The notes beneath the pieces were generated by a model. That model saw only the letters and a list, made by a program, of their open reading frames with translations, had not been told where the DNA came from and made no database searches. From contig CADCUR010000115.1 of the NCBI GenBank assembly GCA_902805935.1, forward strand, positions 1 through 35,579: a DNA stretch of 35,579 nt, in the 5' to 3' direction. A program made the position numbers and the translations under genes. Positions 1,143-5,219 of this stretch are shown one piece after another. Origin of the DNA: an uncultured Pyrinomonadaceae bacterium. Its GTDB lineage: Bacteria; Acidobacteriota; Blastocatellia; Pyrinomonadales; Pyrinomonadaceae. How positions within the stretch are numbered: position 1 is the first letter of the stretch; every line of letters begins with the position of its first letter.

Positions 1143-2210
1143 ATGAAAAAGATTATTTCCATATTTCTGATTTTATTTTCGGCGAATTTTGTCGTCGCGC
1201 AGGCGGTTCAGCAAAAGCCTCTGACGCAAGCCGAATACGTCAAAATGCTCTACGATTTGCAAAAAAATCCGGGCGTAAAAGACGAACTTGTCGAAGCGAT
1301 ACGAAAACGCGGCATCGCATTTGAACTGACCGACGGCTTGCGCGGGCTGACGGCTTCAAAAAGCCGAAGCGACGCGGATTTGCGCCGCACGCTCGAAGAA
1401 GCCGCGCGCCGTAAAGCCAATCCTGAACGGGCAAAGCTGCCTACGGAAAATGAATCAGCGGAAGTTTTAAATAAAGCTCGTGAAGCGACTTTAGCGGCGG
1501 TTGAGGAAATGCCTGATTTCGTTGTTAAACAGCAAATCGCGCGTTCCGCCGCTTACGCCGGAACGGATAACTTTCGCAACCTCGACCGTTTGGTCGTCGC
1601 CGTCAGTTATCGTTCGGAAGGACGCGAAGAATACCGGATTTTATCGCGCAACGGGATTTTAGAAACTAACCCGCAGTTGAAACAATCTTACGAAGAAGTC
1701 GGCGGCACAAGTTCGACCGGCGAATTCGTGACGGTTCTGGCGAAGATTTTCAAACCCGAAAGCGAGACGAAATTTGAACTCGTTGACACTGACATCATCC
1801 GCGACCGTCGCGCTCTGGTTTTCGATTATTCGATTAAGCGCGATAAAGCGAAACAGGTCATTACAGTCGCGGGCGCGTTTGACGACACGACGATAACTGG
1901 AATGAAAGGCAGAGTTTGGATTGACCGCGAAAACTTTCGCATCCTGCGCGTTGAAAGCCAGGCGACCGAAATTCCCGACAATTTTCGGATTCGCGCGGCA
2001 CGTCGAACGATTGATTATGATTGGGTGACGATTAGCGATGAAAAATATCTGCTGCCGTTGCTGTCGGACGTGCGTTTGACATCGAAGGAAGACCGCCAAA
2101 CATTTGAAACGCGCAATGTCATTCGATTTAAGGATTATCAAAAATACGGTTCGGAAGTTAAAATTTTGGATGACGATGAAGAGGTGCCGGAAGAAAAACC
2201 GAAGCAGTAA
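1143..2210 (+). CDS. Secreted LolA/MucB-like protein of unknown function
   Basis: A 355-residue protein with a clear signal peptide (MKKIISIFLILFSANFVVAQA, cleavage near VAQ-A). After a charged N-terminal part (residues 25-115), the C-terminal two thirds alternate beta-strand-like segments. The segment GMKGRVWIDRENFRILRVES near residue 265 is typical of the outer-membrane-lipoprotein-sorting (LolA/LolB) half-barrel fold, with DYDWVTISDEKYLLPLLSDV following. Such proteins are common and uncharacterised in acidobacteria. The function is not known; periplasmic or cell-surface location is inferred. Start ATG 1143 directly precedes the signal peptide. The gene is monocistronic and followed by an oppositely oriented small gene. 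Confidence 0.55.
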   Translation: MKKIISIFLILFSANFVVAQAVQQKPLTQAEYVKMLYDLQKNPGVKDELVEAIRKRGIAFELTDGLRGLTASKSRSDADLRRTLEEAARRKANPERAKLPTENESAEVLNKAREATLAAVEEMPDFVVKQQIARSAAYAGTDNFRNLDRLVVAVSYRSEGREEYRILSRNGILETNPQLKQSYEEVGGTSSTGEFVTVLAKIFKPESETKFELVDTDIIRDRRALVFDYSIKRDKAKQVITVAGAFDDTTITGMKGRVWIDRENFRILRVESQATEIPDNFRIRAARRTIDYDWVTISDEKYLLPLLSDVRLTSKEDRQTFETRNVIRFKDYQKYGSEVKILDDDEEVPEEKPKQ

Positions 2211-2441: not shown

Positions 2442-3860
2442 ATGAAAAGACGTTTCTTGACAATTGAAGCGCGGATTGTTTGGATAATCTTAACAGCGTG
2501 CGTCTGCATCTCGGCGCAGAACGCGCCGCCGAAAGAGGAAAACAAACGCGAGGCTGATTTGATCGAACTAATCACGCTTGATAAAACCCTGAAACTCGAC
2601 ATTCGCTATGCGCGGACGGATAACTTCGTCGGCAAAGCCGTTTACCCAGAAGCACGGGCGTTTATGCAACGACCCGCCGCCGAAGCCCTTGTCAGAGTTC
2701 ACCAAAAGCTCAAAAAACATAATCTCGGACTGATGATTTTCGACGGCTATCGTCCTTGGTCGGTAACGAAACTTTTCTGGGAAGTGACGCCGGAAGACAA
2801 ACGAAAATTCGTCGCCAACCCGCAAACCGGCTCGCGCCACAATCGCGGCTGCGCCGTTGATTTGAGTATGTTCGATTTGAAAACCGGAAAACTTGTCGAG
2901 ATGCCGACCGACTTTGACGATTTCACCGATAAAGCCAGCCCGAACTATGATGGCGCGAGCGAGCCGCAAAAGAAAAATCGAGATTTGCTGCGCCAAATGA
3001 TGGAAGCCGAAGGCTTCACGGTCAACAAAAACGAGTGGTGGCATTTCGATTATAAAGACTGGGAAAATTACGCGATTTACGACATCGCTTTCTCGCAAAT
3101 CGGAAACGTTGACGTAAAAATCTCCGAAGCGGTCATCGAAGAAAAGTCAGGCTGGAAACAGTTTTTCGACGCCGCTCAAGTGACGGGCGGAATTTACGTT
3201 TATGATTTGCGGAAAAACAAATTTTCGATTTACGACCGCGAGCGAATGAATCGAGGTTTCGTGCCGGCTTCGACTTCAAAAATCATGCACTCGCTCATTT
3301 TCTTGGACTTGGGCGCGCTCAAAGACGAAAACGAAGTTTTGAAATGGGACGGCGTGCGGCGGCGGGTCGAGGCGTGGAATCGAGACCACAGTTTGCGCTC
3401 AGCATTTAAAGCGTCGGCAGCGTGGTTTTATGTCGAAGCGTCAAAGCGCGTCGGACGCGAAAAAATGCAGAAGTATTACGATGAATCGAATTACGGCAAT
3501 CGCAATACGAACGGGTTCGGCAAGGATTATTGGGTTGCGGGCGATTTGCGCGTCACGCCGAAACAGCAGATTGATTTTCTCGTCCGTTTTTACGAAAACC
3601 GCTTGCCTTTTTCGCCGCGTGCGGTTGCAGTCGTCAAAGATATATTAATAGAAGAGCGAACCGACAAATACGTTTTGCGAGCGAAAACCGGCTGGTCGGA
3701 TTCATACGCGCCGCAGGTCGGTTGGTTTGTCGGTTACGTGGAGAAAGAAAATGAGGTTTATTTTTTCGCCGCCGAAATTGATATTAAAAAAAACGAAGAC
3801 GCGGCGAAGCGAAAGGAAATTACCAGAAATGTTTTGAAGAGTTTGCAGATTATCGAATAG
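2442..3860 (+). CDS. Secreted VanX-type D,D-dipeptidase fused to class D beta-lactamase-like domain
   Basis: A 472-residue exported protein with two recognisable enzyme domains. Residues 1-25 are a signal peptide. Residues about 40-220 match the M15D D-Ala-D-Ala dipeptidase (VanX/DdpX) family: GYRP 102-105, the zinc motif SRHNRGCAVD 131-140 (His133, Asp140) and EWWHFDY 198-204 (Glu198, His201). Residues about 235-470 match class D (OXA-like) serine beta-lactamases or the BlaR/MecR sensor domain: STSK 277-280 with nucleophile Ser277 and Lys280, SAAW 325-328 in place of SxV, YGN 351-353, Trp364 and KTG 415-417. All catalytic motifs of both halves look intact in one frame. ATG 2442 precedes the signal peptide; an in-frame GTG at 2421 is possible. 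The likely role is cutting D-Ala-D-Ala or handling beta-lactams in the periplasm. It lies 30 bases before aroA. Confidence 0.85.
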   Translation: MKRRFLTIEARIVWIILTACVCISAQNAPPKEENKREADLIELITLDKTLKLDIRYARTDNFVGKAVYPEARAFMQRPAAEALVRVHQKLKKHNLGLMIFDGYRPWSVTKLFWEVTPEDKRKFVANPQTGSRHNRGCAVDLSMFDLKTGKLVEMPTDFDDFTDKASPNYDGASEPQKKNRDLLRQMMEAEGFTVNKNEWWHFDYKDWENYAIYDIAFSQIGNVDVKISEAVIEEKSGWKQFFDAAQVTGGIYVYDLRKNKFSIYDRERMNRGFVPASTSKIMHSLIFLDLGALKDENEVLKWDGVRRRVEAWNRDHSLRSAFKASAAWFYVEASKRVGREKMQKYYDESNYGNRNTNGFGKDYWVAGDLRVTPKQQIDFLVRFYENRLPFSPRAVAVVKDILIEERTDKYVLRAKTGWSDSYAPQVGWFVGYVEKENEVYFFAAEIDIKKNEDAAKRKEITRNVLKSLQIIE

Positions 3861-3890: not shown

Positions 3891-5219
3891 ATGAAAATCC
3901 AACCCGCCGCTTCGCTTAACGGAGTAATCCGTCTGCCCGGCGATAAATCCATTTCGCACCGCGCAGCGATTTTCGCTTCGATGGCGACCGGAAAAACGCG
4001 CATCGAAAACTACGCGACGAGCGCCGACTGCGCTTCGACTTTAAATTGTCTGAGAAATCTCGGCGTTGAAATCCGGCAGGAGGATTCAACGGTTTTCGTT
4101 AAAGGCGTCGGCGCGGACGGATTTACAAAACCGCCAAGAGAACTCGACTGCGGCAACAGCGGAACGACGATGAGGCTTTTAGCCGGAGTTTTGGCGGGAC
4201 AGAATTTCGATTCTGTTTTAACCGGCGACGCGAGTTTGTCGAAACGTCCGATGCGCAGAATCATCGAGCCTCTGACCGAAATGGGCGCGCGAATCGAATC
4301 CGAAAACGGTTGCGCGCCTTTGAAAATCCACGGTGCGAATCCGCTGCAAGCGATTTCATATAAACTTCCGGTCGCCAGCGCGCAGGTAAAATCCTGCCTT
4401 CTTTTAGCTGGCTTAAACGCCAAAGGAAAATCCCGCATCCGCAATCCAAAATCCCAAATCGAAACTCCGACTTCGAGAAATCACACCGAACTGATGCTGC
4501 GTTATCTCGGCGCGGAAATCGAAGAAAGTTATATCGAAGCCGAAGGCGGATTCGTGCAGGAAATTTCCGTCGCCGGAAATTCAACGCTCGTTGCCAAAGA
4601 TTTAAAGGTTCCTTCAGATGTTTCATCGGCGGCGTTTTTCATCGTCGCCGCAAGCTGTCTGGAAAATTCGGAAATCGTATTGGAAAACGTCGGCTTGAAT
4701 CCGACGCGGACGGCGATCCTCGACGCTTTGCAATCGTTCGGCGCGGACATCGAAGTGTTAAATCGAAACGAAATTTGTAATGAAGTTGTCGGTGACGTGC
4801 GGGTTCGCGGTCGAAAAATTCTCGTCTCGAAAGCGGCGTCAAATTTAATCGGCGGCGATATAATCGCTAACCTAATAGACGAGATTCCGATTCTCGCCGT
4901 GTTCGCCGCGCAAATCGAAAACGGTTTGGAGATTCGCGGGGCGGCTGAACTGCGCGTTAAAGAATCGGACAGAATCGCGGCGGTTGTCGAAAATCTGCGC
5001 CGGATGAATGCGGCGGTCGAAGAATTTCCTGACGGTTTTCGCGTCGGAAAATCCAGTTTGAAAGGCGCGACGGTTGATTCGTTCGGCGACCACCGGATTG
5101 CGATGGCTTTTGCGATTGCCGCGCTGTTTGCGGAAGGCGAAACGGAAATCATCGGCGCGGAATCGGCGGGCGTTTCGTTTCCCGAATTTTTTCAAACGCT
5201 CGCCGGTTTGCGCCGATAA
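3891..5219 (+). CDS. aroA: 3-phosphoshikimate 1-carboxyvinyltransferase (EPSP synthase)
   Basis: Sixth step of the shikimate pathway: transfers enolpyruvyl from PEP to shikimate 3-phosphate in the cytoplasm. The 442-residue protein has the N-terminal LPGDKSISHRA motif (Lys19, Ser20), CGNSGTTMRLLAG at 87-99, SKRPMRRI near 117 and the C-terminal GDHRIAMA motif. Length is normal for the family, apart from a short insertion at residues about 180-191 (KSRIRNPKSQIE), where relatives have a tight link before SRxHTE. That insertion is encoded by an AATCCAAA-type heptamer repeat. The gene follows the VanX-type fusion gene by 30 bases and precedes aroK, so it is probably part of a short run of co-directional genes. 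Confidence 0.95.
   Translation: MKIQPAASLNGVIRLPGDKSISHRAAIFASMATGKTRIENYATSADCASTLNCLRNLGVEIRQEDSTVFVKGVGADGFTKPPRELDCGNSGTTMRLLAGVLAGQNFDSVLTGDASLSKRPMRRIIEPLTEMGARIESENGCAPLKIHGANPLQAISYKLPVASAQVKSCLLLAGLNAKGKSRIRNPKSQIETPTSRNHTELMLRYLGAEIEESYIEAEGGFVQEISVAGNSTLVAKDLKVPSDVSSAAFFIVAASCLENSEIVLENVGLNPTRTAILDALQSFGADIEVLNRNEICNEVVGDVRVRGRKILVSKAASNLIGGDIIANLIDEIPILAVFAAQIENGLEIRGAAELRVKESDRIAAVVENLRRMNAAVEEFPDGFRVGKSSLKGATVDSFGDHRIAMAFAIAALFAEGETEIIGAESAGVSFPEFFQTLAGLRR
4442..4461. repeat. Heptamer-type repeat inside aroA
   Basis: CAATCCAAAATCCCAAATCG is a two-unit copy of the ATCCAAA heptamer that also occurs in the aminotransferase gene (18578-18613) and, inverted, in speD (29859-29890). 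It encodes NPKSQI and sits where EPSP synthases usually have a short loop. Confidence 0.6.

Follow-up and report, generated by a model that had tools for sequence, protein, structure and literature searches.

Class D (OXA) beta-lactamase domains are known in combination with only a short list of other domains. Across 24,916 OXA-domain proteins, one survey reported BlaR types, fusions of class C with class D, one group with an N-terminal extension and one crotonase fusion, and recorded no M15 partner (PMC9045261). Among the class C-class D fusions, LRA-13 has been characterised as a bifunctional beta-lactamase, with Oxalobacteraceae hosts and a blaR1-like neighbour (PMC5967600). Here we describe a gene of an uncultured Pyrinomonadaceae bacterium (Acidobacteriota) that adds a zinc D,D-dipeptidase to this list. 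Like LRA-13, its product combines a class D domain with a second enzyme in one protein; in LRA-13, however, the partner is class C, whereas the present protein gives no PF00144 match. It also resembles BlaR1/MecR1 in carrying a zinc peptidase and a class D-fold domain on one chain, but BlaR1 is a multi-pass membrane protease of the M56 type with a sensor domain, while we predict an exported M15D enzyme. The open-access literature, with most subscription journals outside its scope, yielded no paper joining an M15 dipeptidase to a class D domain. As far as we found, the pairing of the two is undescribed, although each half alone is a familiar enzyme type, and here the survey and the literature agree with the first-pass annotation of this DNA, whose author knew of no described enzyme with this architecture.

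The window analysed (the whole stretch of 35,579 nucleotides) encodes the fusion in a single uninterrupted ORF at 2442-3860 on the plus strand, where the parts of the gene, aroA and the 355-aa upstream gene described below also lie. The ORF specifies 472 amino acids, in which an M15D dipeptidase domain is followed by an entire class D beta-lactamase domain, and the annotation's claim of one continuous frame for both was borne out by Pfam and NCBIfam. The ATG at 2442 agrees with the N-termini of homologues. It is followed by a putative signal peptide (aa 1-25, 2442..2516), in which a basic segment precedes a hydrophobic stretch ending in a likely cleavage site, ISA/QN; homologues appear to have AFA/QN-type signals. 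Judging by these features the protein is likely exported; alternatively, the lipobox-like LTAC at aa 17-20 could belong to a lipoprotein signal. A charged linker (aa 208-236, 3063..3149) separates the two domains. The fusion gene lies 30 bp upstream of aroA (EPSP synthase; 3891..5219, Pfam 1.6e-117) and downstream of a conserved gene of 355 amino acids without a Pfam family (1143..2210), which adjoins M15 likewise in relatives. Its assembly has no other M15 gene and no other class D gene above cut-off; a second class D model match (G000:C174) scored 22 bits, far under the cut-off of 250, and was rejected.

The N-terminal half contains a Peptidase_M15 domain of the M15D, VanX/DdpX-like kind (aa 38-207, 2553..3062; Pfam 4.6e-36; PDB 1r44, VanX, 1.1e-20). 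Its Pfam score of 124.9 bits, against 27.4 bits for VanY, favours a dipeptidase over a carboxypeptidase. The domain can be aligned to 1r44, the VanX crystal structure, through DGYRP, SxHxxGxAxD and EWWH, sharing with VanX and DdpX the Arg of DGYRP and the ExWH zinc site, and this combination of domain and motifs places it in M15D. The zinc motif reads SRHNRGCAVD (aa 131-140, 2832..2861; ligands His133 and Asp140) and is followed by EWWHF (aa 198-202, 3033..3047; catalytic Glu198, zinc ligand His201), the residues being assigned from the VanX alignment. Salmonella PcgL is a periplasmic D,D-dipeptidase of the same M15D type. The first reading of the protein as VanX-type therefore stands as to family and motifs, but not as to equivalog assignment: the M15 half scored 98.8 bits with VanX (cut-off 320) and 147.4 bits with DdpX/PRK10178 (cut-off 176), reaching neither, and it differs from both enzymes in carrying an OXA tail. 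No vanHA-type genes were found beside the fusion gene, whose neighbours are aroA, aroK and others. Only one Ddl ligase match in the genome is strong (238 bits, the others at most 46 bits), which gives no second ligase of the D-Ala-D-Lac kind, and nothing points to a glycopeptide system of the VanA type; VanX glycopeptide resistance was rejected on the neighbours, the ligase count and the VanX cut-off. All fused copies that cover the metal and catalytic residues keep them intact, with one exception, G031 (L003:1-861), which has EWWN near its contig start where the zinc ligand His of EWWH is expected; the dipeptidase half may really differ there, or the contig edge may have introduced an error. 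The AlphaFold model of the M15 half was poor and was left unused, because few sequences cover this half and the alignment was shallow.

The C-terminal half (aa 237-472, 3150..3857) scored 264.3 bits over aa 238-471 with the NCBIfam model bla_class_D_main (NF012161), above its cut-off of 250, and matched the Pfam Transpeptidase family (penicillin-binding/class D domain) over aa 260-466 (1.2e-37). An AlphaFold model of aa 230-472, built from 11 sequences, had a pLDDT of about 90 over most of the OXA half and is predicted to take the OXA fold, its best PDB matches being mostly to the OXA-48 family (TMt 0.94-0.97, about 1.3 A). By sequence, the nearest solved class D structure is 6nhs, a Nostoc class D protein, followed by the OXA-48 family. 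The features shared with class D enzymes are the fold, PAST-x-K, YGN, the omega-loop Trp, KTG and the C-terminal Arg; unlike those enzymes, the OXA half sits behind M15D and lacks a signal peptide of its own. By motif comparison, motif 1 is STSK (aa 277-280, 3270..3281), within PASTSK, where Ser replaces the usual Phe72; motif 4 is YGN (aa 351-353, 3492..3500) and motif 6 is KTG (aa 415-417, 3684..3692). Each of these three motifs, like the two zinc motifs, had been picked out in the first-pass annotation. Motif 3, the active-site SxV motif, reads SAA in the window (aa 325-327, 3414..3422), so that Val120 is changed to Ala, and SAV in the other fused copies. With that exception, all five fused copies scored retain the motif 1 Ser and Lys, SxV, YGN, the omega-loop Trp, KTG and the C-terminal Arg. 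PASTSK, in place of PASTFK, sets the fused OXA clade apart from all 27 other sequences compared, and its motif 5, YWV or YWN with Leu158 changed, differs from nearly all of them. Known enzymes have Phe72 packed into the core next to the active-site motifs, and their Val120 and Leu158 cap the carboxylated lysine (PMC12389319). Since residues 72, 120 and 158 pack near or cap this lysine, deacylation could be weak in the fused clade. Conserved motifs are in any case no guarantee of activity, as YbxI and BAC-1 illustrate (PMC9045261). With the motifs retained but PASTSK and motif 5 altered, we rate beta-lactamase activity of the OXA half as likely, though not established.

To describe the distribution of the fusion, 119 Pyrinomonadaceae genomes were searched. 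Besides the window genome, G000, three of them (G028, G029 and G030) have full-length fusions at 65-69% identity, a fourth has a fusion cut by a contig end (G031) and a fifth has a fusion with a frameshift in the OXA half (G010). Motifs and frame are kept in five genomes at 58-69% identity. Homologues in three independent public assemblies (L002, L003, L004) comprise a full copy in JALHNX010000055.1, one with its 5' part cut by the contig edge in CADEFG010000009.1 and a frameshifted one in MWYY01000085.1. Most relatives have the M15 protein alone. The fusion was not seen in 162 genomes from other families of the class, nor, outside the family, in 396 genomes drawn across the phylum. A genome-collection scan using the OXA half only as query returned stand-alone Bacteroidota OXAs besides the Pyrinomonadaceae fusions, and among the best 5000 records from a plasmid collection there was no match covering 80% of the query. 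The fusion is thus genuine and carried by a lineage of Pyrinomonadaceae.

Trees were then compared with the locus. Among the 62 M15 domains placed in a tree, those of the five fusions included (G000, G028, G029, G030 and the frameshifted G010) fall inside one clade (support 96/92), which also contains G033 and unfused genus-mates. In the OXA tree the fused domains (G000, G028, G029, G030 and G031) form one clade (100/100) on a long stem, and the nearest sequences, weakly placed, are stand-alone OXAs. The order in which the fused copies branch has weak support and is not quite the same in the M15 tree as in the OXA tree. The 355-aa upstream gene is common to G000, G011, G015, G016, G029 and G030. 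On the other side, aroA sequence lies 3' of M15-OXA in G000 and G010 and directly 3' of an M15 gene without OXA in G011 and G016. In G033 (L058:290-400, G033:C21) the last 27 OXA codons persist, in another frame, just downstream of the stop of an otherwise intact M15 gene (78% identity, E 2e-7; 75% DNA identity). Finally, the linker is alignable between fused copies, which indicates a single junction. From the two trees, the common locus and the G033 remnant, the simplest history, and a well-supported one, would be one in-frame fusion event followed by repeated loss. Several independent fusions are disfavoured by OXA monophyly, the alignable linker and the common locus. Lys-rich tails after the M15 stops of several unfused genomes were considered as remains of the linker and rejected; because such tails also occur in lineages without any OXA sign, only G033 was counted as a remnant. 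The tail in G017 (L060) resembles the linker, but it has no OXA sequence match and hence was not counted. The apparent single origin, the OXA-less relatives that share the locus and the fossil in G033 make it possible to follow how a beta-lactamase fusion arose and was lost.

Pairwise comparisons gave dN of 0.12-0.34 against dS above 1 for the OXA half, and dN of 0.08-0.21 against dS of at least 0.9 for the M15 half, the dS values being near saturation. The corresponding pN was 0.11-0.27 for OXA and 0.07-0.18 for M15, with pS of 0.53-0.82. As pN is well under pS, both halves appear constrained, and at the level of codon comparison purifying selection is shown for each. The OXA half is nonetheless dispensable, since it is absent or frameshifted in several relatives.

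On balance, we lean towards an exported bifunctional protein, D,D-dipeptidase and beta-lactamase in one, in which the fusion gave the OXA domain export and expression. The N-terminal half would be a periplasmic zinc D,D-dipeptidase cleaving D-Ala-D-Ala-type dipeptides, and the C-terminal half a class D serine beta-lactamase opening beta-lactams with the help of a carboxylated lysine and by way of an acyl-enzyme on serine. Once, in an ancestor of a few Pyrinomonadaceae genera, a class D domain that lacked a signal peptide would have been joined in frame behind a conserved M15D gene, acquiring the export signal and expression of the dipeptidase, and would later have been lost in several descendants. 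Export, catalysis by both halves and a benefit to the host are what we infer. Either role put forward in the first-pass annotation, an intrinsic resistance factor or a cell-wall recycling enzyme, may apply; our preference is for a dipeptidase that carries an active beta-lactamase.

We noted that M15D has other fusion partners in Acidobacteriota. These architectures were read from long frames around M15 hits at fetched loci that were chosen partly for long frames, hence the counts are no census. A class C-type serine hydrolase (PF00144) followed by a DUF3471-like linker and a C-terminal M15D domain was found at 13 fetched loci from several families of the phylum (L043, L085, L042, L044-L048, L086, L087, L092, L097, L098), with products of about 760-890 aa; in a pattern search most of the class C-type partners had S-V-S-K, a YSN-type motif and HGG or HNG. 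Six fetched loci had the linker and M15. M15D followed by a YkuD-like (L,D-transpeptidase) domain was seen at five loci (L084, L088-L091) of one family (f29) only, the YkuD-like calls being weak (Pfam 0.0004 and 0.039, both under the gathering score). M15D followed by a PF04199 cyclase domain was found at two loci (L083, L095), and Amidohydro_3, linker and M15D at one (L049:2-2599), in a Pyrinomonadaceae genome; we take its amidohydrolase domain to be D-aminoacylase-like. The class C-type proteins resemble our fusion in joining M15D to a serine beta-lactamase-fold enzyme. Such recurrent fusions to serine beta-lactamase-fold, amidohydrolase and YkuD-like domains suggest that a large soil phylum may have a D-amino-acid peptide pathway of which little is known, and they make it possible to test what environmental relatives of beta-lactamases do in nature.

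This choice of partners, which suggests D-amino-acid or cell-wall chemistry, together with the divergent catalytic-lysine pocket and long stem branch of the fused clade, speaks for a cell-wall enzyme in which the class D-fold domain, no longer a real beta-lactamase, would act with the M15D half as a D,D-peptidase or esterase on peptidoglycan stem peptides. We consider this unlikely. The OXA half passes the class D model cut-off and keeps the carboxylation-linked Trp, YGN and KTG; the class C-type partners lie on the opposite, N-terminal side, with a DUF3471-like linker and in a separate M15 clade; and D,D-peptidase turnover is not known from class D proteins. More speculative, and somewhat less probable still, is the view that the exported M15D dipeptidases of Acidobacteriota serve as a fusion hub for enzymes of the cell wall and of D-amino acids, and that the class D module has changed from a beta-lactamase into one of the coupled steps in the turnover of D-Ala peptides; a single protein would then release D-Ala-D-Ala-type products and cleave them next.

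Absence of OXA from genus-mates, its decay in G033 and the frameshift in G010 would also fit a working M15 half with a nearly neutral, decaying passenger. That reading seems distinctly doubtful, since five genomes preserve the motifs and the reading frame at the identities above and OXA dN is well below dS.

Still harder to sustain is a BlaR1/MecR1-like sensor or sink for beta-lactams, whose class D-fold domain would be acylated, hardly deacylated and so regulate the zinc-enzyme half. In its favour, BlaR1 also has a class D-fold domain paired with a zinc protease (PMC9045261), and the lysine pocket of the fused clade is altered. The topology argues against BlaR1/MecR1 identity, with a single predicted N-terminal hydrophobic segment; there is no M56 match, the BlaR1 model scored 190 bits against a cut-off of 400, and no regulator was seen beside the gene. 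BlaR1 has a polar residue at the SxV position, whereas the fused copies have SAV or SAA. That assembly or sequencing error joined two genes has next to no likelihood: all assemblies are draft or metagenome and one homologue is frameshifted, but the same junction recurs in independent assemblies and species, where homologues hold both domains in one frame even though M15 alone is commonest among relatives, and both objections foreseen in the first-pass annotation, an error at the junction and domains always encoded separately, thereby fall away.

Two minor observations concern the neighbourhood and the other architectures. At 604-1008 of the window lies a second gene conserved upstream of M15 in Pyrinomonadaceae, without a Pfam family and PilZ-like by eye. 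Some copies of the YkuD-like domain have a GTAGCTAL string near its end.
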